Notes under the pieces: generated by a model | The model's database searches: none | The model's input: the letters and a program-made list of their open reading frames with translations, nothing else | Told to the model about the DNA's origin: nothing | Source: a virus | Strand: one strand, 5' to 3' | Virus record (IMG/VR): IMGVR_UViG_3300025598_001356 | Location: 1-40,769 of that record | DNA length: 40,769 nucleotides | Translations under genes and position numbers: made by a program | Part shown: positions 1,662 to 30,023 of the stretch, piece after piece | Layout of the letters: every line of letters starts with the position of its first letter | Position numbering within the stretch: the first letter of the stretch is position 1

Positions 1662-3202
1662 TGTGGTGTCCAATTTAATTTTTTTGTTATATAGGATTTG
1701 ACTTGATCCTTGAATTTTTGATCGCTAGTATCTATATCGGTAAGACGTTGATCATATATGTCTTCGTAATTGTTGGTCTCATAGTAGGCAAACAATCTGT
1801 CACTTAGGAAAGGATTACATCCACGCAGGCCTTGGAAACCTTGTGGGCTATAGAATTCCTGTACCAGTGACTGTGCTCGATACCAATCCATATCCTTATG
1901 ACTCCAGATAACAATATCGTTTCTGGTACTGCCCACACCACCTCCTCGCGGTGTGGTGCTGGTAAATTTAACCTCGCCCTTGCTGTCTCTGGTGACTTCA
2001 TATCCTGGGTTATGCCTTGCTTCTAACTTAATTAATCCATTACTAACAAGTTCCTTAGTAAAGCGGCTTTGGTTAGTCAATGACTCGTCATAGTCTGGCA
2101 CTTCCAATATGTGTGCGCTGGCACTTTGTCTTAGCCAATTGGTATTCAACCATTCAAGACTAGAATACCAAGACTCCTTAGTCTCCCCTGGTATACCACA
2201 TATCATTTGTATGTTGGCTCTATAACGTCGGGGAGCGTATATATCTGTATAGGCTTGGAAGTCTAACAAGCCTTGTTGCAGTTTGTCTGGGTCCATGCCC
2301 TTACGTACTAGCCGACCTGCTTCCTTGTTAAATGTTTCAATGCCCATGCTGTGTCCAAGGAATCCTAGTCTTACATAAGTGTCCCAATAGTCTCTATGAT
2401 TAACCACAAGGTCACCCCTAGCAAATCCACACATCCAAGTATTGTATCCTAGTTCATCTACAGCTTCGGCATACTTCTCTAACTTATCTGGACGATCATT
2501 AAATGTTTCGTCCATCACACGCCAATTGACAATGCCCCACTTTTCGTAGCCTAACTGTAATTGTTTCTTAAATTCTTCTTTGCTGACACTGACATCTTTA
2601 GTTTGTCCTAGTAGGGGAAAGTTACAGTAGGAACATTTGAACATACAACCACGTGCTGTTTCGATCTGTGGGCACTCCCAAGGCATCATAAAATCACGTG
2701 CTTCATAGTCTACTAGGTAATTGTCTAATGGCGCACTAGGATAATGATACAAGCCACGAACAACACTCTTGACTCCAAAGTACATAGGGTCACGCATCAA
2801 AGGTGCTCCTAGTGTGCCAGTAAGATGACGACATACAGCCAACACAGCGTTTTCGCCATAACTATCGACCCAGTAGTCTACGTGATTAGCAGGAGTAGTT
2901 AGAGCATTGTTGCCGCCTACTACTATAGCTACTAAGGGATATTCGTCTTTGAGCCAGGCTGTAAATTCATTAAGGTATGGACTCCATGGATTCAAAAAGG
3001 CAGTGCCAAAACAAAACATCACAGTCTTACTAGTTGTTCTACTACGTACAAGCTCTTTAAGTTCTTCTAAAGCCCAGAAGGCTGTAAAGTCTACAACTTC
3101 ACAGTCCCAGTCCTGCTGTCGTAAGAAAGTGGCCACACGATGTGTCCATAGAATACGTTCCCAGCGTTTGCCTGTTAGGCTAAAGAATATGGCGTGATTC
3201 AT
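1658..3202 (-). CDS. B12-binding-domain-type radical SAM enzyme
   Basis: A 514-residue enzyme. The N-terminal roughly 150 residues look like a Rossmann, cobalamin-binding-type domain: an early RxxxFLRQQ helix and the strands IVVGGNNAL and YWVDSYGENAV. The radical SAM core follows with C186-x3-C190-x2-C193 (ARGCMFKCSYC) for the [4Fe-4S] cluster that cleaves SAM. A GMDPDKLQQ helix and the QMICGIPGETKESW strand are typical of the later barrel strands in B12-radical SAM proteins, many of which are methyltransferases or ring-forming enzymes. The cobalamin DxHxxG motif is not evident, so B12 binding is uncertain. Its start overlaps the stop of the upstream gene (3199-3864) by four bases. A relative with the same layout and the same SYCNFPLLGQ-like stretch lies at 26651-28261. 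Confidence 0.85.
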   Translation of the reverse strand: MNHAIFFSLTGKRWERILWTHRVATFLRQQDWDCEVVDFTAFWALEELKELVRSRTTSKTVMFCFGTAFLNPWSPYLNEFTAWLKDEYPLVAIVVGGNNALTTPANHVDYWVDSYGENAVLAVCRHLTGTLGAPLMRDPMYFGVKSVVRGLYHYPSAPLDNYLVDYEARDFMMPWECPQIETARGCMFKCSYCNFPLLGQTKDVSVSKEEFKKQLQLGYEKWGIVNWRVMDETFNDRPDKLEKYAEAVDELGYNTWMCGFARGDLVVNHRDYWDTYVRLGFLGHSMGIETFNKEAGRLVRKGMDPDKLQQGLLDFQAYTDIYAPRRYRANIQMICGIPGETKESWYSSLEWLNTNWLRQSASAHILEVPDYDESLTNQSRFTKELVSNGLIKLEARHNPGYEVTRDSKGEVKFTSTTPRGGGVGSTRNDIVIWSHKDMDWYRAQSLVQEFYSPQGFQGLRGCNPFLSDRLFAYYETNNYEDIYDQRLTDIDTSDQKFKDQVKSYITKKLNWTPQ

Positions 3203-3864
3203 TCTAAAATAAATTCTTCTGGCAAGTAGTTTTTCAAATCCGATACTTTACTACTATCCATAATAAATCTAACGTGTGCCGCAGAATGTTCAAAATTAGT
3301 TATCTGTCCAGCTTTGTTAGCTGAGTTAAGCCAAGGACTTATATAGTTGTCAAACATGTATCTAGCTTGATCTAAATTGCCTAACTTAGTTGTTATAGTA
3401 ACTGTTGTAGGATCAGCTATTTGATTTCTTTTTAATAATTTCCTAATGACCAACTGTACTCTAGCACGACGGCCAAAGTTAGCGGCAGTATGATGAAAGC
3501 CAGCATCCATGTCATACCATATACCGTCTTGAATTAGTCTATACATTTGTTCTTGTACTAGATTGATAAGAAAACATTCGTCTCCCAAAATATTCAAATG
3601 GTACCTATCATCTATATCAGCATGACTAGTATAACATGTACCAGGATCCAAAATAATAATTCTTGCTTCACCTTTACTAACAGGCAAACTGTTGTATAGT
3701 GTTTCCCAAACTGTTCCTTTATACTCATCCTTTAGTACCCAAGGATCGTAAAAGAAATTGCCTGTGGGTTTATTGATAGTAGTTTTGATACCTGATTCAG
3801 GTAATTGGCTACAGGCTTCTTGAAATAATTTTGGATCTGTTGTATAATTGGTTGTAGAAAGCAT
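3199..3864 (-). CDS. Asp/Asn beta-hydroxylase-like 2OG oxygenase
   Basis: Residues 80-140 carry SHADIDDRYHLNI, then AGFHHTAANFGRRARVQLVIR. This matches the iron-binding H81-x-D83, distal His (124 or 125) and 2OG-binding Arg (about 135) layout of the aspartyl/asparaginyl beta-hydroxylase branch of 2OG-Fe(II) enzymes. These hydroxylate side chains or small molecules in the cytoplasm. The reading frame extends to 3960, but that would overlap the divergent gene at 3903. The ATG at 3864, leading into MLSTTNY, leaves a short divergent promoter region and is preferred. It is the first gene of the minus-strand block and is coupled to the radical SAM gene downstream by an ATGA overlap. Confidence 0.65.
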   Translation of the reverse strand: MLSTTNYTTDPKLFQEACSQLPESGIKTTINKPTGNFFYDPWVLKDEYKGTVWETLYNSLPVSKGEARIIILDPGTCYTSHADIDDRYHLNILGDECFLINLVQEQMYRLIQDGIWYDMDAGFHHTAANFGRRARVQLVIRKLLKRNQIADPTTVTITTKLGNLDQARYMFDNYISPWLNSANKAGQITNFEHSAAHVRFIMDSSKVSDLKNYLPEEFILE

Positions 3865-3882
3865 GAAATATTTATGTGCTAC

Positions 3883-3888
3883 TATAAT
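3883..3888 (+). promoter_or_regulatory. possible -10 element between divergent operons
   Basis: An exact TATAAT lies in the 38-base gap between the divergent genes starting at 3864 (-) and 3903 (+). No good -35 is seen 16-18 bases upstream. The same gap read on the minus strand holds a TATAGT and an ACATAAATA that resembles the T4-type late motif with one mismatch. Two operons must start here, so some promoter is expected; which motif is used is not resolved. Confidence 0.3.
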
Positions 3889-3902
3889 GATGTAAATAAA
3901 AC

Positions 3903-4748
3903 ATGAAGACAAAAATCGCACCCGAGTACGATCCAATTTATTTAGAAGTGGATAGGCCACAACCTTTAGTAGACAATTATATTGAATCCCTAATACAGGA
4001 TGTATTATCTGGCCGATTGGATAGAGACATAAGTGATCAAGTTTATATTAATTTCAAAAAGGAAATGACTGCTTGGTTATTACAATCTAAACTTAACACA
4101 ATTACAGGATTGGATACATTTAATCGTGTGGACATAATTAACGGCTGTACTCAATTTATAGATACGGCTTATATGAATGGTCCTGTGCAGGTGCTGGCCG
4201 GCGACTATAGATATCATGCCAGACTGGGTAACTGGTATACATATCCAGGATACCTCAGCGAGGAGAAGCAACTAGTTGTAGCCATGCCATTTCCCAGTAC
4301 AGGAGATACCCACGAGGCTATGAAGGAGATATTAGATGAAGCGGGAAACAAAGGTATTGGTGTACATGTGGACGGCGCTTGGTTTACTTGCTGCCGCGGA
4401 ATTGACTTTGATGTATCTCATCCATCAATTAGGTCTGTCGGGATAAGTCTAAGCAAGGGATTAGGACTAGGATGGAATCGTGTGGGCTTACGTTGGACCA
4501 AGAGTACAACAGCTGATGCCGTTACTATACAAAATGACTTTGCCATGAACCTCCGTGCTCCCGTGATGATTGGCCTACACTTCCTACGCAATATTGCTCC
4601 AGACTACTTGTGGACAACCTATGGCGATATTTACTATAAGATATGCGAGGACTTTGATCTCGCACCAACCAAGAGCATTTATCTTGCTCTCAAAGATAAT
4701 CGACCAGTAGGACTTAGTCCTTTAATAAGGTATCTAGCTGATGTCTAG
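3903..4748 (+). CDS. PLP-dependent aminotransferase-like protein (fold type I)
   Basis: A 281-residue protein. The diagnostic pieces are VHVDGAW around D157, where fold-type I enzymes place the Asp that pairs with the PLP pyridine nitrogen, and ISLSKGLGLGWNRVGLRW with K185 as the likely Schiff-base lysine and R193 as phosphate contact. The S-x-S-K-x(7)-R-x-G pattern is typical of aspartate-aminotransferase-superfamily enzymes. It is shorter than the usual 370-420 residues, with most of the missing part at the C terminus, so the small domain is reduced. It begins a plus-strand operon; its stop overlaps the SGNH gene start (4741). It could act as a transaminase, decarboxylase or C-C lyase. The partners suggest a biosynthetic role, which is inference. 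Confidence 0.65.
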   Translation: MKTKIAPEYDPIYLEVDRPQPLVDNYIESLIQDVLSGRLDRDISDQVYINFKKEMTAWLLQSKLNTITGLDTFNRVDIINGCTQFIDTAYMNGPVQVLAGDYRYHARLGNWYTYPGYLSEEKQLVVAMPFPSTGDTHEAMKEILDEAGNKGIGVHVDGAWFTCCRGIDFDVSHPSIRSVGISLSKGLGLGWNRVGLRWTKSTTADAVTIQNDFAMNLRAPVMIGLHFLRNIAPDYLWTTYGDIYYKICEDFDLAPTKSIYLALKDNRPVGLSPLIRYLADV

Positions 4749-5367
4749 ACTTATAGCATTTGGTGATAGTTTTACCTACGGTCATGGACTAGCCGACTGT
4801 CATGTTCCTGTAAAAAATTGGGCAGGGCCTAACCCTAGTAAATTTGCTTGGCCGCAAGTCCTAGGAGACATGCTTGGATTAGAAGTAGTTAACAAAGCAA
4901 TATGCGGATCTAGTAACGTTCAAATTCTAAAAGAAATATTAAATTTTGAAGATTTTGTGTCCTACGACACAGTGATTGTAGGTTGGACTTTTAATATGAG
5001 AGACTGTATTTTCAATAAAAATATATTTGGAATTGAATCAGATTATCGAGTAAGTGCTTGGCATACAGATATGAAACTTGTAAAAGAATATTTTAGTGTG
5101 CATAATGATCACGATCTTGCTGTTAGAACAGGATTATATATACATCATGCCGAATCCTATTTGAAAACAAAAGGAGTTAAACAATTTCACTTCTCTGCTT
5201 TTCAACATAGATGGTACAATAAAATGCCATCCTTTATCAAAAAACCAGATCATTATATATCCAAAAGTATAATTGATCACAAATTAGATATAGCATTAGA
5301 TAACAGCCATCCTGGACCGATAGCGCATAAACTAGCGGCTGAAAAATTATATAAGATATGCCAATAA
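4741..5367 (+). CDS. SGNH/GDSL-type hydrolase
   Basis: A 208-residue protein with the SGNH hydrolase blocks. Block I is FGDSFTYG with nucleophile S10. Block II is the glycine in AICGSSN. A weak block III lies in VGWTFNMRD. Block V is DNSHPGPIAHKLAA, with D187 and H190 completing the Ser-His-Asp triad. Such enzymes remove or transfer acyl groups on sugars, lipids or peptides. There is no signal peptide, so it should act in the cytoplasm. It overlaps both neighbours by 8-10 bases inside the 3903-8315 operon. A second, more divergent SGNH protein ends the other radical SAM operon (37019-37831), so the pairing of SGNH with radical SAM genes repeats. Confidence 0.75.
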   Translation: MSRLIAFGDSFTYGHGLADCHVPVKNWAGPNPSKFAWPQVLGDMLGLEVVNKAICGSSNVQILKEILNFEDFVSYDTVIVGWTFNMRDCIFNKNIFGIESDYRVSAWHTDMKLVKEYFSVHNDHDLAVRTGLYIHHAESYLKTKGVKQFHFSAFQHRWYNKMPSFIKKPDHYISKSIIDHKLDIALDNSHPGPIAHKLAAEKLYKICQ

Positions 5368-6626
5368 ACATTAATCCTCCAACATTTTGTATGCACCCTT
5401 TTACAGGCCTGGCAACTAGAGAAGATGGAGCCATATGTGCATGTTGCCGTAGTCATCCTGTAGGTAATATACAAGAACAAACACTCGAAGAAATTTGGAA
5501 CAACGATACAATGAAACGTATCCGTTATCAAGTGTTGAATGGCTATCGTCCGCCAGAATGCGAACCTTGTTTTAGTTTAGAAGATCAAGGAGTTGAAAGT
5601 CTTAGACAAAGACATGTGCGAGGAAAGATTCCCGAAGCACGTATCAAACTATACCCTAATGCTGTTAGTAGTATGAACAGTGATTTCACAATGCCGTTTG
5701 AGATTCCTACCATGGAACTTAAACTAAACAACTTGTGTAATCTCAAATGTCGCATGTGCCATCCTATGGATAGTACTAGCTGGAATGATTGGAGTGAGGT
5801 AAAAGAGTTCTACAAGAAAGAAGGCAACATTATGTATGCCATTATAGAAGAACACGACTTAGAAAATAAACCACACTTGGATAACTTTCAAGACAATCCA
5901 TCATGGTGGGCTAGTTTAGAAAAGCTCTTACCTTACTTCCGTCGAGTAGAGTTTGCCGGAGGCGAGCCCTTAATGGATCCTCAACACTATCGCATACTAG
6001 ATATGTTGGCGCCTTATGGTAATCAAATAGAAATTAAATATGCTACTAATCTAAGTATGCTGGGCAAGAGCAATCGTACTGTATGGGAATACTGGCCTAA
6101 ATTTAAGAGTGTGGCTGTCAATGTAAGCATTGATGGTATTGGTAGTAGTTATGAATATGTTCGCGGCAATGCTAGTTGGGCTGAATTGATTAACAACATT
6201 AAACAAATACAAACTATTCCTAACATCAGTCGCATAGTAGGTGCTGTTACTGTACAGGTTAGTAATGTGCTAGTACTGGACAAGATTATTGAATATTTTT
6301 TAGATGACCTTGGCATTGTGTTTCATACGCACAGGGTGGAGTATCCTAAAGTATTATCGGCTCAAGTGTTGCCCAAGCCATTGCGTATGTTAGCGGTAGA
6401 TAGATTAATTGCTATACAAGAAAGAGTTAAAGATTTCAAACTGGTTAAACTGCATCCAGAGCTGTTGTCTTATACATTAGGACAAATACAAGATAATATA
6501 AATTATCTAATGGCTCGAGATCAAAGCGACAAATGGCAGGACTGTATAGAATTTAATCAAAAATTAGATAGCAGTCGAAATCAAAGTTTTTTTGAAGTAA
6601 CTCCGGAGTTCAAAGATTATGCTTAA
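5358..6626 (+). CDS. twitch/SPASM-type radical SAM protein with N-terminal Cys cluster
   Basis: A 422-residue enzyme. The N terminus has FCMHPFTGLATREDGAICACC, then NGYRPPECEPCFSLE. Together these cysteines look like an auxiliary iron-sulfur cluster placed before the core rather than after it. The radical SAM motif is C127-x3-C131-x2-C134 (CNLKCRMC), followed by FAGGEPLM, the SAM-amino-binding GGE motif. The C terminus ends with LDSSRNQSFFEVTPEF, a signature shared with the proteins at 9329, 30855, 32261 and 33621. Reaction and substrate are unknown; SPASM/twitch enzymes often modify peptides or sugars. It lies mid-operon with a 10-base overlap on the SGNH gene and 8 bases on the next gene. 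Confidence 0.85.
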   Translation: MPININPPTFCMHPFTGLATREDGAICACCRSHPVGNIQEQTLEEIWNNDTMKRIRYQVLNGYRPPECEPCFSLEDQGVESLRQRHVRGKIPEARIKLYPNAVSSMNSDFTMPFEIPTMELKLNNLCNLKCRMCHPMDSTSWNDWSEVKEFYKKEGNIMYAIIEEHDLENKPHLDNFQDNPSWWASLEKLLPYFRRVEFAGGEPLMDPQHYRILDMLAPYGNQIEIKYATNLSMLGKSNRTVWEYWPKFKSVAVNVSIDGIGSSYEYVRGNASWAELINNIKQIQTIPNISRIVGAVTVQVSNVLVLDKIIEYFLDDLGIVFHTHRVEYPKVLSAQVLPKPLRMLAVDRLIAIQERVKDFKLVKLHPELLSYTLGQIQDNINYLMARDQSDKWQDCIEFNQKLDSSRNQSFFEVTPEFKDYA

Positions 6627-7425
6627 GGTAATATTAACTAACGGAAACGAAGACCTGATACTAGATTTCAAATTAAGGAATACTGATATAGCAAACAAGT
6701 GGTTTACAGAATTATCTAAAAACTATCCTCTATACGAAACTGATAGATTTAGTAATTGGGGCTCTCATGATTTTGTAAAACAACTTAATAATCAAATTAA
6801 TATTATAAATGCATACCAACCAATAATAGATAAACAAGTATCAGAGTTTTCCACACAACAGGAACTAAATTATCTTCACAAATTTTTTGAAGACCTGCGG
6901 GGTGATATTATTAAAGGAACTGACTGGTATAATAGTGCGCCTGCACATATACAGGAAGCTGTTTGTCGATTTAATATATTAATACATCAATTAGAATCAT
7001 CAATTAGAACAGGCAATACGCATCCTACTCTAGTAGTAACTTTTTCAAATACCCTGAGATTAAATCTTTCTGAAAAAGACATGCGTGAATTTACTTACAA
7101 ATGGAAACAGAATACCGTATATATAAACTATTGTCAAAATGGAAAAACTGTTCTAGATGTTTTCAAAGATAATGATACTATGGCAGAAGCTATCAGACCG
7201 CAGATTTATTACAGTGCAGACTTTATGATTAAATTTGGTCCGAGCACTCACTGGTTGATTTATCTAATACGATCTGTAATAATTAAAATATGGTTGTTAC
7301 GGAAAAGGTTTCCATTTAAGAATCTAAACATAGGAATGATACCGGTGGCAGATCTAGTTACATCCGTAGATAAATCTACACTATTAAAATTTAATAAGGT
7401 TAAATCAGTTGTATGCTTAAAGTAA
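6619..7425 (+). CDS. hypothetical protein in radical SAM operon
   Basis: A 268-residue protein that I do not recognise. It is rich in aromatic, Asn and Lys residues, with a helical middle (YLHKFFEDL...) and a later hydrophobic stretch, STHWLIYLIRSVIIKIWLLRK (residues about 211-231), that may be a membrane-associated helix or a buried strand-helix. No catalytic motif is evident. It is enclosed between two radical SAM genes and overlaps both (8 and 13 bases), which makes it a plausible dedicated partner or substrate-binding protein of those enzymes. That role is inference from gene order only. Confidence 0.6.
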   Translation: MLKVILTNGNEDLILDFKLRNTDIANKWFTELSKNYPLYETDRFSNWGSHDFVKQLNNQINIINAYQPIIDKQVSEFSTQQELNYLHKFFEDLRGDIIKGTDWYNSAPAHIQEAVCRFNILIHQLESSIRTGNTHPTLVVTFSNTLRLNLSEKDMREFTYKWKQNTVYINYCQNGKTVLDVFKDNDTMAEAIRPQIYYSADFMIKFGPSTHWLIYLIRSVIIKIWLLRKRFPFKNLNIGMIPVADLVTSVDKSTLLKFNKVKSVVCLK

Positions 7426-8315
7426 CCAGTAGATATCCTCATCAGGGTACAATTAAGATCGAATGGAATCTTGGCAAACGCTGTAACTACGATTGTAGTT
7501 ATTGTCCTAGCGAAATACACGATAACACAAGCCCGCATACTGATATTGAAATATTGAAAACATGTGTTGATAAACTAGTTACTCTTGGCAAACCTGTTCG
7601 TCTTAGCTTCACAGGCGGAGAGCCCTGTGTACATCCTAAGTTTGATGAGCTAGTTAAGTATTGTAAACACGTTGGCATCAGTTGGATCAGTGTAACTACC
7701 AATGGAACTCGCCCTTACGATTTTTACGCTGGACTTCCTGTTGATCAATTTGTTTTTAGCATCCATTTAGAATACGATTGGAAACGTGTATTCAATACTG
7801 TAGAAAGCATTAATAAATTGTCCACTGTAAAAGTTATAGCACAGATTATGGCACACCATGATCATATGCCAGCAGCCATACAATTAAGAGCTAGATGCCA
7901 ACTAGGTAATATTCCTAATACTGTCCGTCGTATACGCTGGACTAAAGGCGATCATGATTTGTTTGATGACATGCGTTACAATACTAATGATTTAGATTTT
8001 ATCAAATCTATGGAATCTACAGTAGAAGCAAATACGGTAGTATGGCTAAACAACGAACATGCACAGTTATTATATCATGCTAACGACATGATTAAGAATC
8101 ATCAGAACCAATTCAAAGGATGGTCCTGTAGTGCTGGTATAGAAAGTCTAATGATTAACTGGGACGGAGATGTACACAGAGCAACTTGTAGAGTTGGAGG
8201 TAGTCTTGGCAACATATATGAAGATAACTTTATTGCACCCGGCGAACCTGTAATTTGCGACCGTAATTTTTGTACCTGCGCGGCAGATATTCCGTTAACT
8301 AAGTCTAAACTTTGA
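7413..8315 (+). CDS. radical SAM protein with C-terminal Cys cluster
   Basis: A compact 300-residue radical SAM enzyme. The cluster motif lies very near the N terminus, C24-x3-C28-x2-C31 (CNYDCSYC), and is followed by LSFTGGEPCVHP. The C-terminal region has GWSCSAG, then ATCRVGG and CDRNFCTC. This set of cysteines could bind one auxiliary [4Fe-4S] cluster, as in twitch/SPASM proteins. The same layout (GWSC or NWTC, then a cysteine group near the end) occurs at 8295-9332 and 13387-14346, so the three form a subfamily. It is the last gene of the plus operon and its 3' end overlaps the convergent radical SAM gene by 21 bases. The substrate is not predictable. Confidence 0.85.
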   Translation: MLKVTSRYPHQGTIKIEWNLGKRCNYDCSYCPSEIHDNTSPHTDIEILKTCVDKLVTLGKPVRLSFTGGEPCVHPKFDELVKYCKHVGISWISVTTNGTRPYDFYAGLPVDQFVFSIHLEYDWKRVFNTVESINKLSTVKVIAQIMAHHDHMPAAIQLRARCQLGNIPNTVRRIRWTKGDHDLFDDMRYNTNDLDFIKSMESTVEANTVVWLNNEHAQLLYHANDMIKNHQNQFKGWSCSAGIESLMINWDGDVHRATCRVGGSLGNIYEDNFIAPGEPVICDRNFCTCAADIPLTKSKL

Positions 8316-9332
8316 TTGTTGTGTTTCGCAAGCACATAAACAATTCTTAATAGAACATATAGAAGATTTGAATTCGGGATCAAATTTTTCTGTGAAGTCT
8401 TTATCAAGAATATTAAAGGTATAGTCTAATCCATAAATCTTCTGTGTGCAGGCTCCTTGTATCGAACCTGTCCATTCAATGAAAACATTGTCTAATCCTA
8501 TATCACAACTCCACCCTTCAAAACCAGTCCAGCCATTATTAATATAGGTATTAGATTTTGTTTTCATGGTCTTACCATTTTCAAAGTGAGCAACGCTTTC
8601 GTAAAGTCTTATATGCCCGTCTGAAATTAATTTTCTATTTTTCCAGAACCATAATATGTTAGGTATTCTTTTTAAGGAGTTTTTTAAGAAACTTTTTTGT
8701 TCCTTTGTTAGTTGAATATCATTGGCATCGATAACTCGTATACCTTTGATGTTTGCTACATCCGGTTCAATGACTTCGCAGGTGGTTATAAACCAGTTGT
8801 ATTTGCTTTTTGTTTTCATGTATTCAATAACATCCAATCCTTCTTGCCAGTATTTCCTATCCATTAAAACCTTAACGGTGACCTTTTTACCTAACTCAAA
8901 TAGTGTATCTGCCACAGCTATCATATGATCAGGATCCGCTTGGGAAATATGATATGACAATCCTGCATTGTCTATTAAATGTCCGTATTCTTTCCACCAT
9001 CGCAATGTTCTTGAACCATTGCTAATCAAAGTAAAGTAAACATTATTTTCTTTTTTGATTTCTTCTATAAATTTACCAAGATCTTTCCATAAAGTAGGTT
9101 CTCCTCCTGCTAGACTAAGATGAACAACAGTTTTACCTAATTTAGTTTTGTATCTTTCAATCATGTGATTAAAATTTTTCACTATAAGATTGAGGTCTTC
9201 AGGAGATTTATAGTCGCCCTTATTACTGCCAGGCCAACAGTACTCGCATTTATAATTGCAAACGTTATTAGGATTCCATCTTATCGCTAAAATATTAGGT
9301 TTTTGTGTTGATACAATCTTTATAGGTTTCAT
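8295..9332 (-). CDS. radical SAM protein with C-terminal Cys cluster
   Basis: A 345-residue protein of the same subfamily as 7413-8315. C25-x3-C29-x2-C32 (CNYKCEYC) comes right after a short N-terminal strand, followed by LSLAGGEPTLW. The C-terminal part has GFEGWSCDIGLDNVFIEW, then SICSIKNCLCAC, a dense cysteine group for a likely auxiliary cluster. It is the last gene of the long minus-strand operon that starts near 14346. Its start codon shares four bases (ATGA) with the stop of the upstream gene, and its 3' end overlaps the convergent relative at 7413-8315. The adjacency of two related enzymes on opposite strands suggests an inverted duplication followed by divergence. Confidence 0.85.
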   Translation of the reverse strand: MKPIKIVSTQKPNILAIRWNPNNVCNYKCEYCWPGSNKGDYKSPEDLNLIVKNFNHMIERYKTKLGKTVVHLSLAGGEPTLWKDLGKFIEEIKKENNVYFTLISNGSRTLRWWKEYGHLIDNAGLSYHISQADPDHMIAVADTLFELGKKVTVKVLMDRKYWQEGLDVIEYMKTKSKYNWFITTCEVIEPDVANIKGIRVIDANDIQLTKEQKSFLKNSLKRIPNILWFWKNRKLISDGHIRLYESVAHFENGKTMKTKSNTYINNGWTGFEGWSCDIGLDNVFIEWTGSIQGACTQKIYGLDYTFNILDKDFTEKFDPEFKSSICSIKNCLCACETQQSKFRLS

Positions 9333-10747
9333 AATAAATGTGATAGTTCCGGAAATGTATTCTTAAAATTAGTGTTACGTTGTTTATCCATAACACTAAT
9401 ATAGTCTTTGAAATCTAATAGTAAGTTGGTATGATCTTCTTTATCCATCCAATCTAGTATCCCTTCCCAACGTTTCCATCCATAGGGGTTAACTTCCCAG
9501 AATTCTTCATCTTGTGTATAATTTTTCCATAGCCATTCCTGAAGAGCAACAAACAACTTGCGCACCTCCAGTTTGTCTTCCTTGGGCAACACACGTAGAC
9601 TTAGCCATGTAGGTATCCATAGCAAATGTACACCTACTAGTCCGCCACCCATTACATGACCTGCGGCATTCTTATCAAAATTAATTTTCTTAAAGTCCAT
9701 ACGCACTTTCCATTTAATGAAATCTGGAACGTGTTTGATATTTAATATCTGTACTGCCATGGCAATATTAGTTTGAATATTGTCTGGAGCATTATCTAAT
9801 TTGATTAAATTTTCTTCCACCGTCTTCCACTCGAGGGGATAACGTATATACTCTCCCCTTGGCCCAATACCATCTAAACTAACACCGACTTTGACTTTGC
9901 GGAATTGACTCCATATTTCAATGATCTCGTCGTTGACTAATATACCATTAGTATTATATCTTAAGCTAATTTGTTTAGCATAACCACGTTTTATAATTTC
10001 TAAAAGAAACACCTTGTGTTCTTTGATCAGTAGAGGCTCACCCCCAGCAAAATATAATTGTTTGATGTTGGGAATTTGATCATATACTTCTTCCCAGAAC
10101 TCAGGATTTTCGTGCCACTTGTTATTGAACTCGTCAGACTCCCAACTCATTTGTTTTTTAATTAAAGGGCTGGTAAAAATAGGGAATACTTTTTTATGTT
10201 CAGGTACCCACAAACTACTATCGTGTGGACTACACATGATGCATTTCAAATTACATGTATGCCCTAGCCTTAGATCTAGATATTGCAACTTGTAGGGAAC
10301 AGTTCCGTCTATTTCTGTTTCTGCAATTAGTTCTTTAATATCAATTTTTTCGTTCAAGTGCCACGTACCAGTTTCCCAAATACGTTTACTGGCAATACCT
10401 TCTGCTTCTTCTTCATAACACTTTACACAACTGGCAGGAACTTCGCCTGCCAACATAGTTTTACGCACCGATTTCATATAGTCGTTATTAAATGCTTCTG
10501 TAGGTAAGTCCTTGGCAAAGTTAGCAGGATTGCCATTTTCTTTTTTTACAAGTCCTACTGTATAGTCTCCGCTATCGGCACCGCTTGCATTGGCAACACA
10601 ACAAATACGCATATCACCATTGGGCCTTGTTGCTAAATGAATCCATGGTAAAACACAGAAACTAGCACTACCGGTTAAATCTGTAATCTGTTGTTGCCAG
10701 TTACCTAATTGTGTTTCGGCCGGTTGTATCCAAAATGTTTTACTCAT
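9329..10747 (-). CDS. twitch/SPASM-type radical SAM protein with N-terminal Cys cluster
   Basis: About 472 residues. The N-terminal cysteine block reads FCVLPWIHLATRPNGDMRICC and is followed by PASCVKCYEEEAEG. The radical SAM triad is C165, C169, C172 (CNLKCIMC), followed by FAGGEPLL. Towards the end is QRNTNFKNTFPELSHLL, the signature shared by five proteins in the window. The frame is open to 10780, but the ATG at 10747 overlaps the upstream stop by eight bases (ATGAGTAA) and leads straight into MSKTFWIQP, so it is preferred. The family is annotated from many uncultured phages and bacteria as twitch-domain radical SAM; its chemistry here is unknown. Confidence 0.85.
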   Translation of the reverse strand: MSKTFWIQPAETQLGNWQQQITDLTGSASFCVLPWIHLATRPNGDMRICCVANASGADSGDYTVGLVKKENGNPANFAKDLPTEAFNNDYMKSVRKTMLAGEVPASCVKCYEEEAEGIASKRIWETGTWHLNEKIDIKELIAETEIDGTVPYKLQYLDLRLGHTCNLKCIMCSPHDSSLWVPEHKKVFPIFTSPLIKKQMSWESDEFNNKWHENPEFWEEVYDQIPNIKQLYFAGGEPLLIKEHKVFLLEIIKRGYAKQISLRYNTNGILVNDEIIEIWSQFRKVKVGVSLDGIGPRGEYIRYPLEWKTVEENLIKLDNAPDNIQTNIAMAVQILNIKHVPDFIKWKVRMDFKKINFDKNAAGHVMGGGLVGVHLLWIPTWLSLRVLPKEDKLEVRKLFVALQEWLWKNYTQDEEFWEVNPYGWKRWEGILDWMDKEDHTNLLLDFKDYISVMDKQRNTNFKNTFPELSHLL

Positions 10748-11825
10748 TGATTGATGTCTCAGTTTCTTGTTCGTGAACACCTAAATATGGACTGTATGGC
10801 CCGCACATAATGATACAAGTAGAACTAGATCGATCTTTCCATTTTTGTTGCCACATGGTTTGCCATTGTTTGGATTCGATGATATTTTGAAATCCTTCCT
10901 TGAGTACATTTAATCTAGGAAATGCTAATACTTGATTTCTTACTCTTTCACCTTCTTCAATAATAGAATCTTCTTGGAACAGATCATAAGATTTATATAA
11001 ATCAACATCGTAGTTTGTGTATAAAAATGCACCAATCATACAACAAGGGCTTAGTTGATAATGCGCATCTATAAACAAATCTTTATCTCGCATAGCCACA
11101 CAATTAATCTTATCAGCGTTAGGCCAATTTTGATGTCCTTCTAAGTCTGATTTACTTACAAATTTAATAGTACTGTCGCTAGGTTGTTCAAGATTATATA
11201 AAAATTTTCCATGCTCATCTACAACTGGAAAAGGTCTCCCATGTCGTCTACTGGTTTTCATGGTAAATTGTTTGAAACCTAATTCTTTAGATAGCTGTTC
11301 TGCTTCTCTAACTTGATGTTCGTTATGTTTGAATCTAATAAAATGCCATTCGGCTGTTCCGCCTGCTTCTATAAAAGTTTGGGCATTTTTCAAAATCATA
11401 CTATAATTAGTTCCAACACGATAAATGCTGTGTGTATCTTCTAGTCCATCTATAGCAAATATTACATTATGATTATTAGGTAATGCAGATTTTAGTTCTT
11501 TCCACCAAGCTGTAGATCTTAAACTACCGTTGGTATGTATAGCTATTTCTATTTCAGGATTGCTGTTTTTAACATATTCACACATTTTAATAATATCATT
11601 GTTTATCAACGGATCACCAAAGTTTCCACAAAAATTTATTATTTTAAGTTGTTGTAATACGTCTATAGGAAATATCTTTACAAAATCATCTATTGACCAA
11701 TCATTTATTTCTAGCAAGGGATTATCGATTCCACCGTGGATATTTCTTGGACACATAGGACAAGATGCTTGGCATCTATTGGTAATCTCCAAGTGAACAC
11801 TTTTAAGTTCGGACATACTAAACAT
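10740..11825 (-). CDS. radical SAM protein (CxxxCPMC group)
   Basis: A 361-residue enzyme beginning with VHLEITNRCQASCPMCPR. The cluster cysteines are C18, C22 and C25. A NFCGNFGDPL stretch takes the place of the usual GGEP, a variant seen in the two related proteins at 12413 and 34810 as well. A central FKHNEHQVREAEQL motif is also shared by all three. The C-terminal region has CVAMRDKDLFIDAHYQLSPCCM and later STCIIMCG, a SPASM-like auxiliary-cluster arrangement. The ATG at 11825 is preceded at 8 bases by AGGA; a second in-frame ATG at 11816 is possible. It lies between the methyltransferase gene and another radical SAM gene, overlapping both. Confidence 0.85.
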   Translation of the reverse strand: MFSMSELKSVHLEITNRCQASCPMCPRNIHGGIDNPLLEINDWSIDDFVKIFPIDVLQQLKIINFCGNFGDPLINNDIIKMCEYVKNSNPEIEIAIHTNGSLRSTAWWKELKSALPNNHNVIFAIDGLEDTHSIYRVGTNYSMILKNAQTFIEAGGTAEWHFIRFKHNEHQVREAEQLSKELGFKQFTMKTSRRHGRPFPVVDEHGKFLYNLEQPSDSTIKFVSKSDLEGHQNWPNADKINCVAMRDKDLFIDAHYQLSPCCMIGAFLYTNYDVDLYKSYDLFQEDSIIEEGERVRNQVLAFPRLNVLKEGFQNIIESKQWQTMWQQKWKDRSSSTCIIMCGPYSPYLGVHEQETETSINE

Positions 11826-12423
11826 TTTTATTTCCTATGATCATCCAACGAGTATATAAGGGTAACGCCAATTCACCGGCCCAGACAACATCAATTTTAG
11901 ACTGAGCTTTGAATTCATCCAAGCTATTGGCAATCCTAATATGCTCAGGTATATTGTAGTTATTACTTTGTAGCACCAGCAAACTGTCATTAGGCACTAG
12001 ATCTAACCACTTGTGATACTGTGCTTGTGTGATATGTTCACAGCTAGTATTGATTACAATGTTGGCTTCACTCATAGTGCTACACATGTCTGCTGTAATG
12101 GCTGAGAATCTTCCTTGTATTTCTTCTCCCTTGTTCATCATAGTTGCTGTCTTTTCACAACTGGGATCTATATCAATGCTACGAATCTTCCAAACAGGTA
12201 TTGTGCTTTGAAATAGCATACTGGCCAACACACCCACCCAGCCGCCATAGATGTCTACATCATATGGTCCGGACTTGATAGAACAATGCATAGCTAAGGT
12301 TTCAATCAGCCACTCTTTACTTTTGAGTTGGCCGCTCCAAAAGGCATCCATAGTGCGCAAGGGATCTTCACTTTGTCTAATGGCCTGCATCCAGTAGTGT
12401 AAGTGTTCAGAGTCAATTAACAA
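11818..12423 (-). CDS. class I SAM-dependent methyltransferase-like protein
   Basis: About 201 residues with a Rossmann SAM-binding pattern: VDIYGGWVGVLASML (motif I, glycine loop) followed by IRSIDIDPSCEKTA (acidic end of beta2, ribose contact) and ITADMCSTM, then INTSCEHI as motif IV. These features indicate a small class I methyltransferase or a non-catalytic relative. A TTG at 12423 is chosen because GGGAG sits six bases before it; a TTG at 12444 would add seven residues, and an overlap with the upstream stop exists in both cases. It is embedded in a run of radical SAM genes, so O-, N- or C-methylation of the pathway product is the simplest reading. Confidence 0.65.
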   Translation of the reverse strand: MLIDSEHLHYWMQAIRQSEDPLRTMDAFWSGQLKSKEWLIETLAMHCSIKSGPYDVDIYGGWVGVLASMLFQSTIPVWKIRSIDIDPSCEKTATMMNKGEEIQGRFSAITADMCSTMSEANIVINTSCEHITQAQYHKWLDLVPNDSLLVLQSNNYNIPEHIRIANSLDEFKAQSKIDVVWAGELALPLYTRWMIIGNKNV

Positions 12424-13399
12424 ATTGTGCTCCCATCTTGTCAAAACTGCCGCACTGTTTACTGCACTCCAATAGAGGTTTAATATTCCATGTATCCTCT
12501 ATTTGTTGAAAATATCCAGAATCAAAGATATCTTCTAAAGATTGTGTATTTAGATTAAGAAATTTGCCAATAGTATCCATGTAGTCTACACGACTGTCTT
12601 GTCTTGGTACATACCAACTAAAGTCAAGCCAACAACAGGGGCTTATAACTCCGTTAGCAGAAACGTAAAATTGTTTACTTGTTTTTGCTTTACATTTAAT
12701 AATAGGTTTGATTTCGGTAATAGACGATTTAACTTTTGGAATCATATCCAAACTATGCTGTGTGGGGTAAAGAATGTGTTTGGTTTTCCCACTATCGTCT
12801 AGCACATGCAATTTATTTTCTGAAAATCTACTAGTGTGTTTCACACTAAATTCTTTGAAGCCCAGCGAGTGAGACAACTGTTTGCAATCGTCAATTTGAT
12901 GTTCGTTATGTTTGAACGCCAACATGTCCCATCTTGCTACTCCGCCTGCTTCTATAAAAGCCGTGGCATTTTTTATAATTTTGTTCCAGTCAGTATCCAC
13001 TCTGTACAAAGAATGGGTGTCTGCAAGGCCGTCGATACCAAACACAACTTTGACATTATATTGAGCTAGTTCTTTCCACCAATGTATATTCCTTGCACTG
13101 CCATTTGTATTCATCTGTAATTGAATATGCGGATTTATCGTTTTTAGGTATTGTATTATTTCTAGACAATCTTCTGCAATAATAGGATCTCCTAAATTAC
13201 CACACATAAAAATTCGATCAAGCTGTCGAATAAAATCTGGATTAAACCATTTCTTAAAAGTATCTAAATTTATTTCTGTTATTTCAAACAACGGATTAAT
13301 AATACCGCCATTAACACGTCGTGGGCACATGGGGCAACGTGCTTGGCATTTGCTGGTTAATTCTAAGTGGATTTCTTTTATATCTTCTAATTTATACAT
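12413..13399 (-). CDS. radical SAM protein (CxxxCPMC group)
   Basis: A 328-residue relative of the genes at 10740 and 34810. It starts with IHLELTSKCQARCPMCPR (C18, C22, C25), has the MCGNLGDPI variant in place of GGEP, and carries FKHNEHQIDDCKQLS in the middle. The C terminus has SANGVISPCCWLDF and LLECSKQCGSF, likely auxiliary-cluster cysteines. The DNA encoding the FKHNEHQ segment is nearly identical to that in the gene at 10740, which supports duplication within the operon. Its start overlaps the stop of the gene at 13387 by about 13 bases. The substrate is unknown. Confidence 0.85.
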   Translation of the reverse strand: MYKLEDIKEIHLELTSKCQARCPMCPRRVNGGIINPLFEITEINLDTFKKWFNPDFIRQLDRIFMCGNLGDPIIAEDCLEIIQYLKTINPHIQLQMNTNGSARNIHWWKELAQYNVKVVFGIDGLADTHSLYRVDTDWNKIIKNATAFIEAGGVARWDMLAFKHNEHQIDDCKQLSHSLGFKEFSVKHTSRFSENKLHVLDDSGKTKHILYPTQHSLDMIPKVKSSITEIKPIIKCKAKTSKQFYVSANGVISPCCWLDFSWYVPRQDSRVDYMDTIGKFLNLNTQSLEDIFDSGYFQQIEDTWNIKPLLECSKQCGSFDKMGAQFVN

Positions 13400-14346
13400 T
13401 TTGGTATTTTACTATCGGCGCTACTTACGCACCTTTCGGTTACGCATGGTCTAGGGGCGGAAAACAAAGTAAAGTTGTCTAACGTTCCCAGAGGTTGTTC
13501 TTTACAGCTATATGCTCTCTTGACCTCATTACCTCTTATTATAACACTCTGATAGCCTGCATTGCAAGTCCAATTGGCAAACTGATTAAAGCCCAATGCA
13601 TTAAATCTCTCTGCTTGATCTATGTAATAATCTTGCTCACCATCAGTTAGACGAATTTGATAACCTTCCTGTTGTTCAAAATCATCTTGCATGATCTTAA
13701 CCATATCAGGAGTATAGCCAGTAACAATGGATGTAGCGGTATCGTTGCTCTGTGGTTTGAGTGTTACATTGATTCCACGGTCACGCAAACGGTTGCATCG
13801 TTCTAATGTTTCATAAAACAGTTCTGGCACCATAACTTGGTTGACTGTTACATGTACTCGTTCATACATTAGTTGTAGGCATTTGTCACCAAACTCCTGC
13901 TCTTTGGCAAACTCAGCGTGAAAGCTGGCTGTGATACTACGACGCTGTAAACAGTCAGTGATATCGCACCAATTCTCCCACCATTTTGATCCTGGCGACA
14001 AATTGGTTGTCATATGTATGCTTTGATAGCTACTTTGGGTTTCATCCAAGTGTTTGATTAAATTGGGAAGCTCTTTATAAGCCGTAGGTTCGCCGCCACT
14101 AAAACTCCAGTGGAATTGGGTAAATCCGTTCAAACCAGCTTGACGCTTTATCTCGTTGACTGTAGACTTATAAACTTCTAAAGTTTGGTAGTCCAACTTG
14201 TTACTTCGAGCATATGGCCAGCAATAGCTACACTTGTAATTACAAAATCTTCCCAATATCCAACTTATGTTAAATAAAGGACGATCCAACATTGTTTGCT
14301 GTCCAAACCGTTGTATTTTTGCGAATGGGATAAGAGAGAAATTCAT
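13387..14346 (-). CDS. radical SAM protein with C-terminal Cys cluster
   Basis: A 319-residue protein grouped with 7413 and 8295. The triad is C35-x3-C39-x2-C42 (CNYKCSYC), with the SFSGGEPTAY motif after it. The end has ANWTCNAGYQSVII, then AYSCKEQ and CVTERCVSS, again a C-terminal cysteine cluster. It is the first gene of the minus-strand operon that runs to 8295. Its first codons overlap a plus-strand consensus -35 box (14346-14351), so transcription toward the tRNA-like gene starts just outside this coding sequence. Its own promoter must lie within or beyond the tRNA-like gene on the minus strand; I see only a weak candidate there. Confidence 0.85.
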   Translation of the reverse strand: MNFSLIPFAKIQRFGQQTMLDRPLFNISWILGRFCNYKCSYCWPYARSNKLDYQTLEVYKSTVNEIKRQAGLNGFTQFHWSFSGGEPTAYKELPNLIKHLDETQSSYQSIHMTTNLSPGSKWWENWCDITDCLQRRSITASFHAEFAKEQEFGDKCLQLMYERVHVTVNQVMVPELFYETLERCNRLRDRGINVTLKPQSNDTATSIVTGYTPDMVKIMQDDFEQQEGYQIRLTDGEQDYYIDQAERFNALGFNQFANWTCNAGYQSVIIRGNEVKRAYSCKEQPLGTLDNFTLFSAPRPCVTERCVSSADSKIPKCIN

Positions 14347-14374
14347 TGACAGTATTTACAAAGGATGCTATAAT
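14346..14374 (+). promoter_or_regulatory. consensus sigma70 promoter for the tRNA-like RNA
   Basis: TTGACA at 14346-14351 and TATAAT at 14369-14374 are separated by exactly 17 bases, a perfect sigma70 promoter. Transcription would begin about seven bases after the -10, at or next to 14381. That is the first base of the 7-bp acceptor-like stem of the downstream RNA. Host RNA polymerase could therefore express this RNA without viral factors. The -35 lies over the start codon of the divergent radical SAM gene. Confidence 0.8.
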
Positions 14375-14380
14375 TACTAC

Positions 14381-14491
14381 GTGGACGTGAGTGTAACTTG
14401 GTAAACCTCCTCCTAGTAGCTTCGGCGAACGGAGGGAACGGGTCTAGCTCATTGAGTGACTTTGAAGGTTCGAATCCTTCCGTCCACACCA
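14381..14491 (+). tRNA. tRNA-like RNA, 111 nt, atypical body (anticodon not identifiable)
   Basis: The ends are tRNA-like. GTGGACG (14381-14387) pairs perfectly with CGTCCAC (14481-14487), followed by A and an encoded CCA. Just before is a perfect T arm: stem GAAGG/CCTTC with loop TTCGAAT (14464-14480). The 5' part has a D-loop-like AACTTGGTA. The middle does not fit a tRNA: there is no 5-bp stem with a 7-base anticodon loop. Instead CCTCC/GGAGG (14409-14413/14431-14435) closes a 17-base loop containing a GC-UUCG-GC mini-hairpin, and GTC..GCTC-ATT-GAGT-GAC (14442-14460) forms a variable-arm-like hairpin. It may be a degenerate or insertion-bearing class II tRNA, or a tRNA mimic. A consensus promoter places its start exactly at the 5' end. 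Confidence 0.5.
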
Positions 14492-14520: not shown

Positions 14521-14847
14521 ATGAAAAAGGCACTGGTATTAGTTGTAATGTTAGCAACCACTAACGTGTTTGCATATTCTGAAGATCCACATCAACAATT
14601 TGATATGACTCATAATGAAGTAAATGAAACAAAGATTTCATTTATACAAGCGCCTGTCGATGTTACCAAAACCTGTGACGAGGAAAGTCGCCGACGTGGT
14701 TTTAACGGAATGCCTTACAACGTCGATGCCTGTAGTTTTTACAATGGTTCTAAATCCGAGTGTACTATTGTTACAGGAAGAACAACAAACTTTCATACCA
14801 TTGGACACGAAGTCCGTCATTGTTTGCAAGGCCACTGGCACAAATGA
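14521..14847 (+). CDS. secreted small HExxH protein (putative metallopeptidase-like)
   Basis: A 108-residue protein. It begins with a clear signal peptide, MKKALVLVVMLATTNVFA, probably cleaved after the A-x-A-like VFA, so it should go to the periplasm. Near the C terminus is GHEVRHCLQGHWHK, with H96-E-x-x-H100, the zinc-binding signature of metallopeptidases, plus further histidines. The protein is very small for an active protease. Two other proteins in the window (15775, 25912) also have HExxH. Four cysteines may form disulfides. Its stop overlaps the start of the next gene by four bases. Transcription from the promoter at 14346 could read through the tRNA-like gene into it, since no terminator is seen. 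Confidence 0.65.
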   Translation: MKKALVLVVMLATTNVFAYSEDPHQQFDMTHNEVNETKISFIQAPVDVTKTCDEESRRRGFNGMPYNVDACSFYNGSKSECTIVTGRTTNFHTIGHEVRHCLQGHWHK

Positions 14848-15377
14848 AAAAAGTAGCATCAAGTCCTGAACGTCATACCTTTCAAAAAGAAGGGTATATC
14901 AAGCGTTGTGAGAAAGAAGGCAAAGAACCCAATTCCGACTATGTTGCCATGTACAAGACTTGGCGTGAACAGGATGAGGAGAATCTAAAAGACCCTGTGT
15001 GGCAAAAGAACAATATGGAGTACGATCTCCGTAGTTCAAAAGAACTTTGCGACAAAGTTAAGGCCAGTGATGCGTATGCTCAAAACTTATATGCGGCCAT
15101 GTGTAACATGACTTGGCAAAGCAGAGAGTTTTGGCAGGAAATGAAAGGTGAAACTTGGAGTTGCTCTTGGCGTCACTCTGGTGGTATAATTGCTGACATG
15201 CGTGAACAAGGTGATTACATCGATTGGTATTGTAGCGGTATTGGCGGTGGACTCGGCAATGGCGATGAAGAAGGTAATAAAGGCTATGTGCCAGAAGGTG
15301 TAGTCACTGAAGAAATTGAGTTGGACTTAAACCGTTTAGGTTGGAGACCAATTCCTTATGAGGATGACGAAGTTTAA
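14844..15377 (+). CDS. hypothetical phage protein
   Basis: A 177-residue protein that I do not recognise. It is charged and soluble-looking. It has several Trp and Cys residues (MCNMTWQSREFW, TWSCSWRHSGG) and a glycine-rich GIGGGLGNGDEEG turn, and ends in an acidic PYEDDEV tail. The start at 14844 overlaps the stop of the secreted HExxH gene (ATGA), indicating coupled translation. The central region with WRHSGGIIADMRE resembles phage proteins of unknown function encoded near DNA-metabolism genes. No function is claimed. Confidence 0.6.
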   Translation: MKKVASSPERHTFQKEGYIKRCEKEGKEPNSDYVAMYKTWREQDEENLKDPVWQKNNMEYDLRSSKELCDKVKASDAYAQNLYAAMCNMTWQSREFWQEMKGETWSCSWRHSGGIIADMREQGDYIDWYCSGIGGGLGNGDEEGNKGYVPEGVVTEEIELDLNRLGWRPIPYEDDEV

Positions 15378-15391
15378 GGTTAAATATTAGC

Positions 15392-15562
15392 ATGACACAT
15401 TGGACCGTAACAGTTGAAGAAGCAGAAGATGGTAGTGGGGACCTAGTACTGCCATTACCTCAAGACTTATTGGATTTACAAGGATGGGTAGAAGGTGACA
15501 CACTTGAGTGGACAGATAATAAGGATGGCTCGTGGAGCATAGCAAAAGTAACTAATGGCTAA
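15392..15562 (+). CDS. small AbrB/MazE-like protein
   Basis: A 56-residue protein not obvious from long reading frames. The sequence MTHWTVTVEEAEDGSG is followed by LVLPLPQDLLDLQGWVEGD and TLEWTDNKDGSWS. The pattern of a short strand, LPLPxxLLxxxGWxxGDxLEW, then a strand fits a swapped-hairpin AbrB-like DNA-binding domain, the fold of MazE-type antitoxins and many small phage regulators. It sits directly upstream of the IF-1 gene and overlaps it by eight bases, so its expression is tied to infA. No toxin partner is visible next to it, so an antitoxin role is unlikely. A regulator of this operon is possible but not shown. Confidence 0.6.
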   Translation: MTHWTVTVEEAEDGSGDLVLPLPQDLLDLQGWVEGDTLEWTDNKDGSWSIAKVTNG

Positions 15563-15773
15563 AGACGACACGTTAGAATTTACCGGAGAGGTAGAAGAAG
15601 TATTGCCTGGCAATATGTTTAGAGTTAGAGTAGAGGGATATGATAAACCGCTACTTTGCTATTTGGGTGGTAAGCTCAAACAAAACAAAATTAGAATCAT
15701 ATTAGGCGACGAAGTAAGATTAGAAGTCAGCGTATATGATTTGAGCAAGGGCAGGATCACTTATAGGTTGTAA
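15555..15773 (+). CDS. infA: translation initiation factor IF-1
   Basis: A 72-residue protein, the exact family length. MAKDDTLEFTGEVEEVLPGN, then MFRVRVEGYDKPLLCYLGGK and a C-terminal YDLSKGRITYRL match IF-1 along its whole length: the OB-fold strands, the LGGKLKQNKIRIILGD segment corresponding to the ISGKMRKN-IRIL-GD core, and the invariant YDLSKGRI. IF-1 occupies the ribosomal A site of the 30S subunit during initiation and supports IF-2 and IF-3. Host IF-1 is normally chromosomal, so a phage copy suggests capture to favour viral initiation. It overlaps the AbrB-like gene by eight bases and is one base before the HExxH gene at 15775. Confidence 0.92.
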   Translation: MAKDDTLEFTGEVEEVLPGNMFRVRVEGYDKPLLCYLGGKLKQNKIRIILGDEVRLEVSVYDLSKGRITYRL

Positions 15774-24078: not shown

Positions 24079-24283
24079 CGAAATTGAATTAATGGAAATG
24101 GCTCGTGACTACGAAGCTATGGAAAGAGTAGCACTACAAGATGCAGAAGAATTGCGTCAGTTGCGTAATGGCGAAAGAATTATTGTGCCTGTAGATATCG
24201 AACATGCACGTACAATGTTCAAGTTGTCTAGTTTTTATCTTAGCCAACACGACAAAGAATTTACTTTAACAATGGAGATGTAA
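24071..24283 (+). CDS. small helical hypothetical protein
   Basis: A 70-residue acidic protein ([17 protein letters not shown]...). The N-terminal half is a long charged helix ([13 protein letters not shown]), followed by [26 protein letters not shown]. It overlaps the previous stop by 8 bases and shares one base with the ClpP start. It may be a partner or adaptor for ClpP because of the tight coupling, but no motif shows it. Confidence 0.5.
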
Positions 24284-24873
24284 TGCCTACTTTAGTACCA
24301 ATGGTTATCGAGCAAGAAGCTCGTGGAGAACGCAGTTATGACATTTACAGTCGCTTGCTCAAGGACCGTATTGTCATGCTGGATACGGACGTAAATGAAC
24401 ATTCAGCAAGTTTAATTGTAGCACAGCTACTTTTCTTAGAAAGTCAAGGCAATGAGGATATTAGTTTTTTCATTAATAGCCCTGGCGGTGTTGTTACCGC
24501 TGGTATGGCAATTTATGATACTATGCAGTTCATCAAGCCAGATATCCAAACCATCGTTATGGGACAGGCTTGCTCAATGGGTAGTTTACTCGCCACTGCT
24601 GGCGCTCCTGGCAAACGCAAGATTCTACCAAACGCTCGCCACATGATTCACCAACCTAGTGGCGGTGCAGGCGGACAGGCTACAGACATGGAAATCCAAG
24701 TAAAGGAAATCCTAAAGATGAAACAAAGTCTTACACAAATTTATGTAAACCATAATAGCAAAGGTAAGACGTTTGAAGAGTTTTATACAGCCATGGAACG
24801 TGACAATTTCATGACAGCGCAGGAAGCCGTAGATTTTGGCTTAGTCGACGAAATCGTTACTGAACGCTCTTAA
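24283..24873 (+). CDS. clpP: ATP-dependent Clp protease proteolytic subunit-like
   Basis: A 196-residue ClpP homologue. The Ser-His-Asp triad is in place: S98 in [11 protein letters not shown]123 in [11 protein letters not shown] and D174 in [31 protein letters not shown] is the classical substrate-binding region. ClpP forms tetradecamers and needs an AAA+ partner (ClpA or ClpX); none is in the window, so the host's would be used or the phage encodes one elsewhere. Phage ClpP-like proteins can act in head maturation or in removing host proteins. Its stop overlaps the convergent glycine-zipper gene by four bases. Confidence 0.88.
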
Positions 24874-28261: not shown

Positions 28262-28263
28262 TA

Positions 28264-28292
28264 TTGACATGTTGTTTGATAGGCTATATAAT
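28264..28292 (+). promoter_or_regulatory. consensus sigma70 promoter for DNA ligase
   Basis: TTGACA (28264-28269) and TATAAT (28287-28292) with a 17-base spacer, a perfect match. The start would be near 28299, about 22 bases before the ligase ATG, which is preceded by GGAG. Confidence 0.8.
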
Positions 28293-28321
28293 ACGCTATA
28301 CAGTTAACTATTGGAGTCGAA

Positions 28322-29641: not shown

Positions 29642-29653
29642 TAGGAAAAAAAT

Positions 29654-30022: not shown

Positions 30023-30023
30023 A

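Follow-up and report, generated by a model that had tools for sequence, protein, structure and literature searches.

A conserved tRNA-like RNA with leucine-tRNA identity bases and no anticodon heads the IF-1 operon of uncultured phages

The stretch of viral DNA analysed here (the window, 40,769 nt) encodes a 111-nt RNA that belongs to a conserved and structured tRNA-like family. Computation shows that this family lacks an anticodon, carries the identity bases of tRNA-Leu and heads a phage operon coding for translation initiation factor IF-1. The 106 distinct members examined come from uncultured, mostly freshwater phages, with one copy per phage; the carriers are a large family of freshwater giant phages.

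Results

Architecture and promoter of the RNA gene

The features of the RNA gene and of its surroundings are listed in table 1. A previous sequence-only reading of the window had proposed a TTGACA-17-TATAAT promoter with a start at 14381, and an RNA with a 7-bp acceptor stem, an encoded CCA and a perfect T arm. All of these are present, at the coordinates and spacing claimed for the promoter and with the T loop TTCGAAT. In the 76 distinct RNAs first compared, the promoter is conserved together with its spacing, the distance from the −10 element to G1 being a constant 6 nt. The encoded CCA is found in all aligned homologues but one, which has CCG, and the discriminator A73 in 106 of 106 members. 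The −35 element abuts the start codon of a divergent radical SAM gene. Perfect promoters of this type abound in a 265-kb relative, where there are dozens of the same class, so the promoter is a mark of early host-type transcription and nothing peculiar to the tRNA-like RNA.

Table 1. Coordinates of the RNA gene, its parts and the neighbouring genes in the window.
Feature	Position	Strand	Basis
tRNA-like RNA gene, 111 nt, encoded CCA end	14381..14491	+	covariance model and homologue family
Sigma-70 promoter TTGACA-17-TATAAT (−35 14346–14351, 17-nt spacer, −10 14369–14374, G1 at 14381), TG ahead of −10	14346..14374	+	sequence; near-invariant in 76 homologues
Acceptor stem, 5′ strand GTGGACG, partner 14481–14487	14381..14387	+	99.3% paired; double changes at 4 of 7 pairs
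D-arm region, tRNA-Leu type (A14 = 14395, A15 = 14396, G18G19 = 14400–14401, A20a = 14403)	14388..14408	+	homologue comparison; sequence nearly invariant
Hairpin replacing the anticodon arm, UUCG-containing cap, no anticodon loop; 5-bp stem in the best pairing (14409–14413 with 14431–14435)	14409..14435	+	stem 100% paired; compensatory changes
Class II long variable-type arm, 2-nt UA/UU bulge	14440..14462	+	strongest covariation of the molecule
U48, Levitt partner of A15	14463	+	invariant in 106 of 106
T arm GAAGG-TTCGAAT-CCTTC	14464..14480	+	100% paired; covarying
Acceptor stem, 3′ strand (CGTCCAC), A73 (14488) and CCA (14489–14491), then a short T run	14481..14491	+	homologues
Small secreted protein with HExxH motif, operon gene 1	14521..14847	+	in 54 of 79 loci
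Conserved operon gene, fold without known match	14844..15377	+	in 73 of 79 loci
Small AbrB/MazE-type protein	15392..15562	+	homologue weakly matches PF04014
Translation initiation factor IF-1 homologue	15555..15773	+	PF01176, E = 5.5e-17; PDB IF-1 chains down to 6e-18
Divergent radical SAM gene, usual but inconstant neighbour	13387..14346	−	PF04055

The sequence-only reading relied on the RNA not fitting a standard tRNA model with an ordinary anticodon, and this was borne out: the Rfam tRNA model RF00005 gives 16 bits against a cut-off of 29, in the wrong register. ARAGORN calls no tRNA and no tmRNA in the window, and an Rfam search with the RNA returns nothing at the cut-off. tRNA finders thus overlook such genes in phage genomes. 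The fold energy of the single sequence is unremarkable in comparison with shuffled sequences (z = −1.12) and so proves nothing alone; homologues were therefore needed.

Homologues and covariation

With the divergent radical SAM protein as query, 80 loci were retrieved from viral contigs, and most of these have the same RNA and the same promoter on the strand opposite to the radical SAM gene. The alignment contains 79 distinct RNAs of 95–121 nt, with four helices written by hand. The helices are paired in 99.0 per cent of cells, compared with 38–52 per cent when the partners are slid, and double changes occur at 16 of 26 pairs, a result equalled by none of 500 shuffles. The stems are thus conserved in the covariation analysis that the sequence-only reading had called for. 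The long variable-type arm, which it had also described, shows with the T stem the strongest covariation, while the D stem is nearly invariant and beyond the reach of this test.

A second retrieval, independent of the RNA, used the HExxH protein of the operon and also gave 80 loci. The family covariance model finds the RNA 5′ of the HExxH gene in 69 of them, with scores of 80–130 bits and with the promoter conserved as well; several of the loci in which it was not found are cut by contig ends. In this set 97.6 per cent of cells are paired, in an alignment that was fitted to the model and so leans towards it. The copy in the window, which belongs to the model-building set, scores 123.5 bits. 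The observation of a structured tRNA-like RNA is confirmed, and the suggestion that it is a new one is supported by conserved and covarying helices, a promoter of its own and the lack of an Rfam match.

A DNA pattern for the D-arm region matches at least 119 viral stretches and none of about 85,000 bacterial and archaeal genomes. In the same genomes a looser pattern has five chance matches, none with a convincing model score; the one among them that the family model hits weakly (16.2 bits over 73 nt) is not a member. A bacterial origin or an integration target was rejected, since these two patterns reveal no member in the approximately 85,000 genomes. The RNA has no match in plasmid DNA, and a DNA search of phages and E. 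coli yields only T-arm-sized matches to ordinary tRNAs.

Replacement of the anticodon arm

The sequence-only reading described a UUCG-capped hairpin with a 17-base loop in place of the anticodon arm. The hairpin is there; the fixed 17-base loop is not, as this arm varies in length across the family and often has a UUCG or CUUG cap or forms a longer hairpin. Most of the caps are of 4–6 nt, and loops of 7 nt appear in only two of 106 folds, with no conserved anticodon. The shortest members (95–101 nt) have at this place either a UUCG-capped stem or a 4-bp CCAG-CUUG-CUGG hairpin, and the latter form, present in RNAs of 95–96 nt, is too short to hold a 7-nt loop. One explanation offered earlier was a tRNA with a small insertion. 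This reading, or that of an intron in an ordinary tRNA, is ruled out, because no removal of any part of the 95–101-nt members leaves an anticodon loop.

The 7-bp acceptor stem, the T arm with TTCRA and the CCA end are those of a canonical tRNA; an anticodon arm with a 7-nt loop and recognition by tRNA models are lacking. The replacement arm looks like a cap and not a reading head, and the RNA is unable to read codons.

Leucine-tRNA body

The body of the RNA is specifically that of a tRNA-Leu, which the sequence-only reading did not recognise, as it did not recognise the position at the head of the IF-1 operon. U8, A14, A15, G18G19, A20a, U48, U54U55C56, A58 and A73 are jointly present in 105 of 106 members, which share descent, so that such counts overstate independence and the invariant identity bases are not independent observations. 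Among ordinary tRNAs the same set is found in 14 of 15 tRNA-Leu and in none of 78 others (93 tRNAs from two phage arrays, T4, SCTP-2 and E. coli). In divergent members the D arm reads TGAGTGGAATTGGTAGACCT and resembles those of tRNA-Leu more than those of other tRNAs. Among canonical tRNAs the family model scores a tRNA-Leu highest in each of E. coli, T4, Salicola phage SCTP-2 and the 265-kb relative; these matches reach 28–37 bits, whereas members score 80–130.

The leucine determinants of E. coli are A73, A15-U48, G18G19, A20a and contacts between the D and T loops; for charging of tRNA-Leu the anticodon arm and the variable arm are dispensable, while editing by leucyl-tRNA synthetase (LeuRS) needs the anticodon arm (PMC9976931). 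The identity bases of the family match these published E. coli elements. The RNA resembles class II bacterial tRNA-Leu in its D arm, A15-U48, G18G19, A20a, long variable arm, T arm and A73-CCA. It differs in the lack of an anticodon arm and loop, in a 2-nt bulge in the variable arm and in an irregular D stem with few standard pairs and one extra base between the acceptor and the D arm; with this irregular stem LeuRS might bind less well. At the second acceptor pair most of the family have U2-A71, where E. coli tRNA-Leu has C2-G71. No LeuRS-type synthetase was found in the large related phage records, which would leave charging to the host. On these sequence features we predict that the RNA is leucylated by the host LeuRS despite having no anticodon.

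SCTP-2 encodes at 317099–317176 (L378, about 2100–2177) an odd 78-nt tRNA-Leu(GAG) without a long variable arm. Its D arm, TGAAGGGAATTGGTATACCT, closely resembles that of the anticodon-less family, of which it is possibly a distant cousin that has retained its anticodon.

Genomic context

The order in the window is the RNA, a small secreted HExxH protein, a protein of unknown fold, an AbrB-like protein, IF-1 and a second HExxH protein. The phage IF-1 contains the eIF-1a/IF-1 domain; IF1 has already been reported in huge phages (PMC7162821). Eight larger related records carry the RNA in single copy, with IF-1 (PF01176) about 1.1–1.3 kb downstream. The 178-aa operon protein was considered as a partner of the RNA and set aside, as its AlphaFold model (pLDDT 76) has no fold match in Foldseek. 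Dependence on the radical SAM neighbour was also rejected: in several RNA-positive loci it is replaced by other genes, while the RNA and the operon stay.

Six loci (L273, L281, L282, L287, L288 and L290) have the operon and the same promoter type, and no RNA. The promoter there lies directly before the next gene. Since the first ATG comes only 5–6 nt after the −10 TATAAT, the operon mRNA of these relatives should, from its sequence, be leaderless. No second copy of the RNA was found elsewhere in the contigs of these loci, which are fragments. The RNA is thus dispensable for transcription of the operon, and these loci favour an action in trans.

Two large records each have 28 array tRNAs and a separate Met tRNA, about 29 ordinary tRNAs in all, and there are three ordinary tRNA-Leu in the 265-kb record. 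As ordinary tRNA-Leu are already present, the RNA fills no gap in the leucine tRNA set. The isolated Met tRNA (77 nt; L189 3295–3371, L190 2283–2359) lies far from the tRNA array, is identical in its printed parts between the two large phages, and is perhaps an initiator.

Comparison with known RNAs

The bacteriophage T4 stable RNAs C and D (species 1 and 2) are small RNAs of unknown role encoded near tRNA genes (PMC3014915, PMC9697503), and are late RNAs (PMC9697503). RNA C has a T arm like the RNA described here; unlike it, RNA C has no encoded CCA, and its length and promoter setting are different. On T4 the family model scores tRNA-Leu best (31.2 bits), RNA C weakly (16.6 bits) and RNA D not at all, and homology to RNA C or D was rejected on these scores. 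Both could be looked at afresh in light of the anticodon-less family.

The tRNA-like domain of tmRNA also lacks an anticodon arm. A tmRNA, however, has pseudoknots and a message part with a tag reading frame, for which there is no room in 95–121 nt, and its identity is alanine, not leucine. The pair 3-70 varies in the 79 RNAs (A-U in 61, G-C in 13 and G-U in 5), and an alanine identity (G3-U70) was rejected for that reason. The tmRNA models of ARAGORN and Rfam do not match the RNA. With no message part and no model match, a tmRNA or split tmRNA was rejected as well.

The tRNA-like structures at the 3′ ends of plant viruses are viral tRNA mimics charged by host synthetases (PMC4810235). Those structures form the termini of RNA genomes and differ in fold and specificity, whereas the phage RNA is a separate gene of a DNA phage. 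A minimal tRNA-Leu without an anticodon arm made in the laboratory is described as still charged by LeuRS (Larkin 2002, as cited in PMC9976931); it is artificial, and the phage RNA, judged by its sequence, appears to be a natural counterpart. No anticodon-less phage tRNA was found in the open-access literature, which is weak evidence of novelty.

Discussion

The usual explanation of phage tRNAs is codon supply, a purpose that a body without an anticodon cannot serve. That such a body is conserved therefore suggests that phages have a second use for tRNA mimicry during infection. We lean towards the view that the RNA is a leucine-tRNA derivative without an anticodon arm, charged by the host LeuRS and acting in trans as a non-decoding mimic of Leu-tRNA. 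It would be transcribed early by the host RNA polymerase, with the mature 5′ end (G1) as +1, and a cut behind the CCA would release it from the operon mRNA. Leucine would then be attached by the host LeuRS, for which the anticodon arm is unnecessary at this step. Because the product cannot pair with a codon, it would work in trans without decoding. Its most likely use would be to occupy or satisfy enzymes whose substrate is tRNA-Leu or the elbow and acceptor of tRNAs; candidate targets are a host tRNA enzyme or an antiviral effector that attacks tRNA, and the tRNA set of the phage would thereby be shielded. A decoy for host tRNA enzymes, already suggested by the sequence-only reading, is possible, and the enzyme or defence engaged is a matter of conjecture: neither a known effector that attacks tRNA-Leu nor a partner protein was identified. 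More tentatively, these RNAs may represent a class in giant phages of natural leucine-charged anticodon-less tRNAs that serve as non-decoding mimics, possibly escaping LeuRS editing and shielding against tRNA-directed defence.

A less probable explanation is that the RNA is a cis-acting leader, that is, the 5′ element of the IF-1 operon transcript with no further task of its own; cleavage behind the CCA by tRNA-processing nucleases would determine the 5′ end, the stability or the start of the mRNA. This would agree with the location of the RNA, nearly always directly ahead of the same operon, with the T run of only 3–4 nt after the CCA in most loci and no strong terminator between, and with the few and mostly poor promoter-like sites between the RNA and IF-1. 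However, in the six RNA-less loci the operon begins straight at a promoter of the same type, and which gene comes first downstream is not constant. Nor would a punctuation element need the full leucine identity set or a replaced anticodon arm.

The trans-acting mimic might instead be used, as our second choice after a decoy, as a leucyl donor in a non-ribosomal reaction. In this improbable variant the charged RNA feeds leucine, without ribosome competition, to a tRNA-dependent aminoacyl transferase such as the host leucyl/phenylalanyl transferase or a peptide-modifying enzyme. A predicted leucine identity without an anticodon would suit such a donor, and genes for a ClpP-like protease and numerous radical SAM enzymes lie in the phage region; yet the phage has no recognised transferase of this kind, and the link to ClpP and radical SAM is one of proximity only, the radical SAM neighbour being inconstant. 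Slightly less probable again is a regulator linked to initiation or the ribosome, which together with IF-1 would help to redirect translation; it might, for instance, bind the 30S subunit, EF-Tu or tmRNA partners. The operon shared with IF-1 is consistent with it, as are the roughly 29 tRNAs of these phages, a separate Met tRNA among them; against it, loci that lack the RNA still retain the operon. Finally, a functionless decaying tRNA or tRNA with an insertion, as might be thought of an RNA that tRNA finders do not call, is refuted by the covarying helices, and the compensatory changes, the invariant core and promoter spacing and the retention across well over a hundred contigs leave it next to no probability.

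Other genes of the region

Many radical SAM genes flank the operon (window positions 1658–13399 and 26651–36027); together with the sugar-modifying genes that the related 265-kb record has in addition, they suggest a cluster for the modification of glycans or of the surface. The ClpP-like protease of the window (24283–24873) has head maturation protease as its best PHROG, and there is also a strong ClpP match in the 265-kb relative. This relative (L197–L210) codes for a 5-aminolevulinate synthase (E = 1.7e-168), as well as for DnaK, IscU, a RimK-type ligase and a class Ia ribonucleotide reductase.
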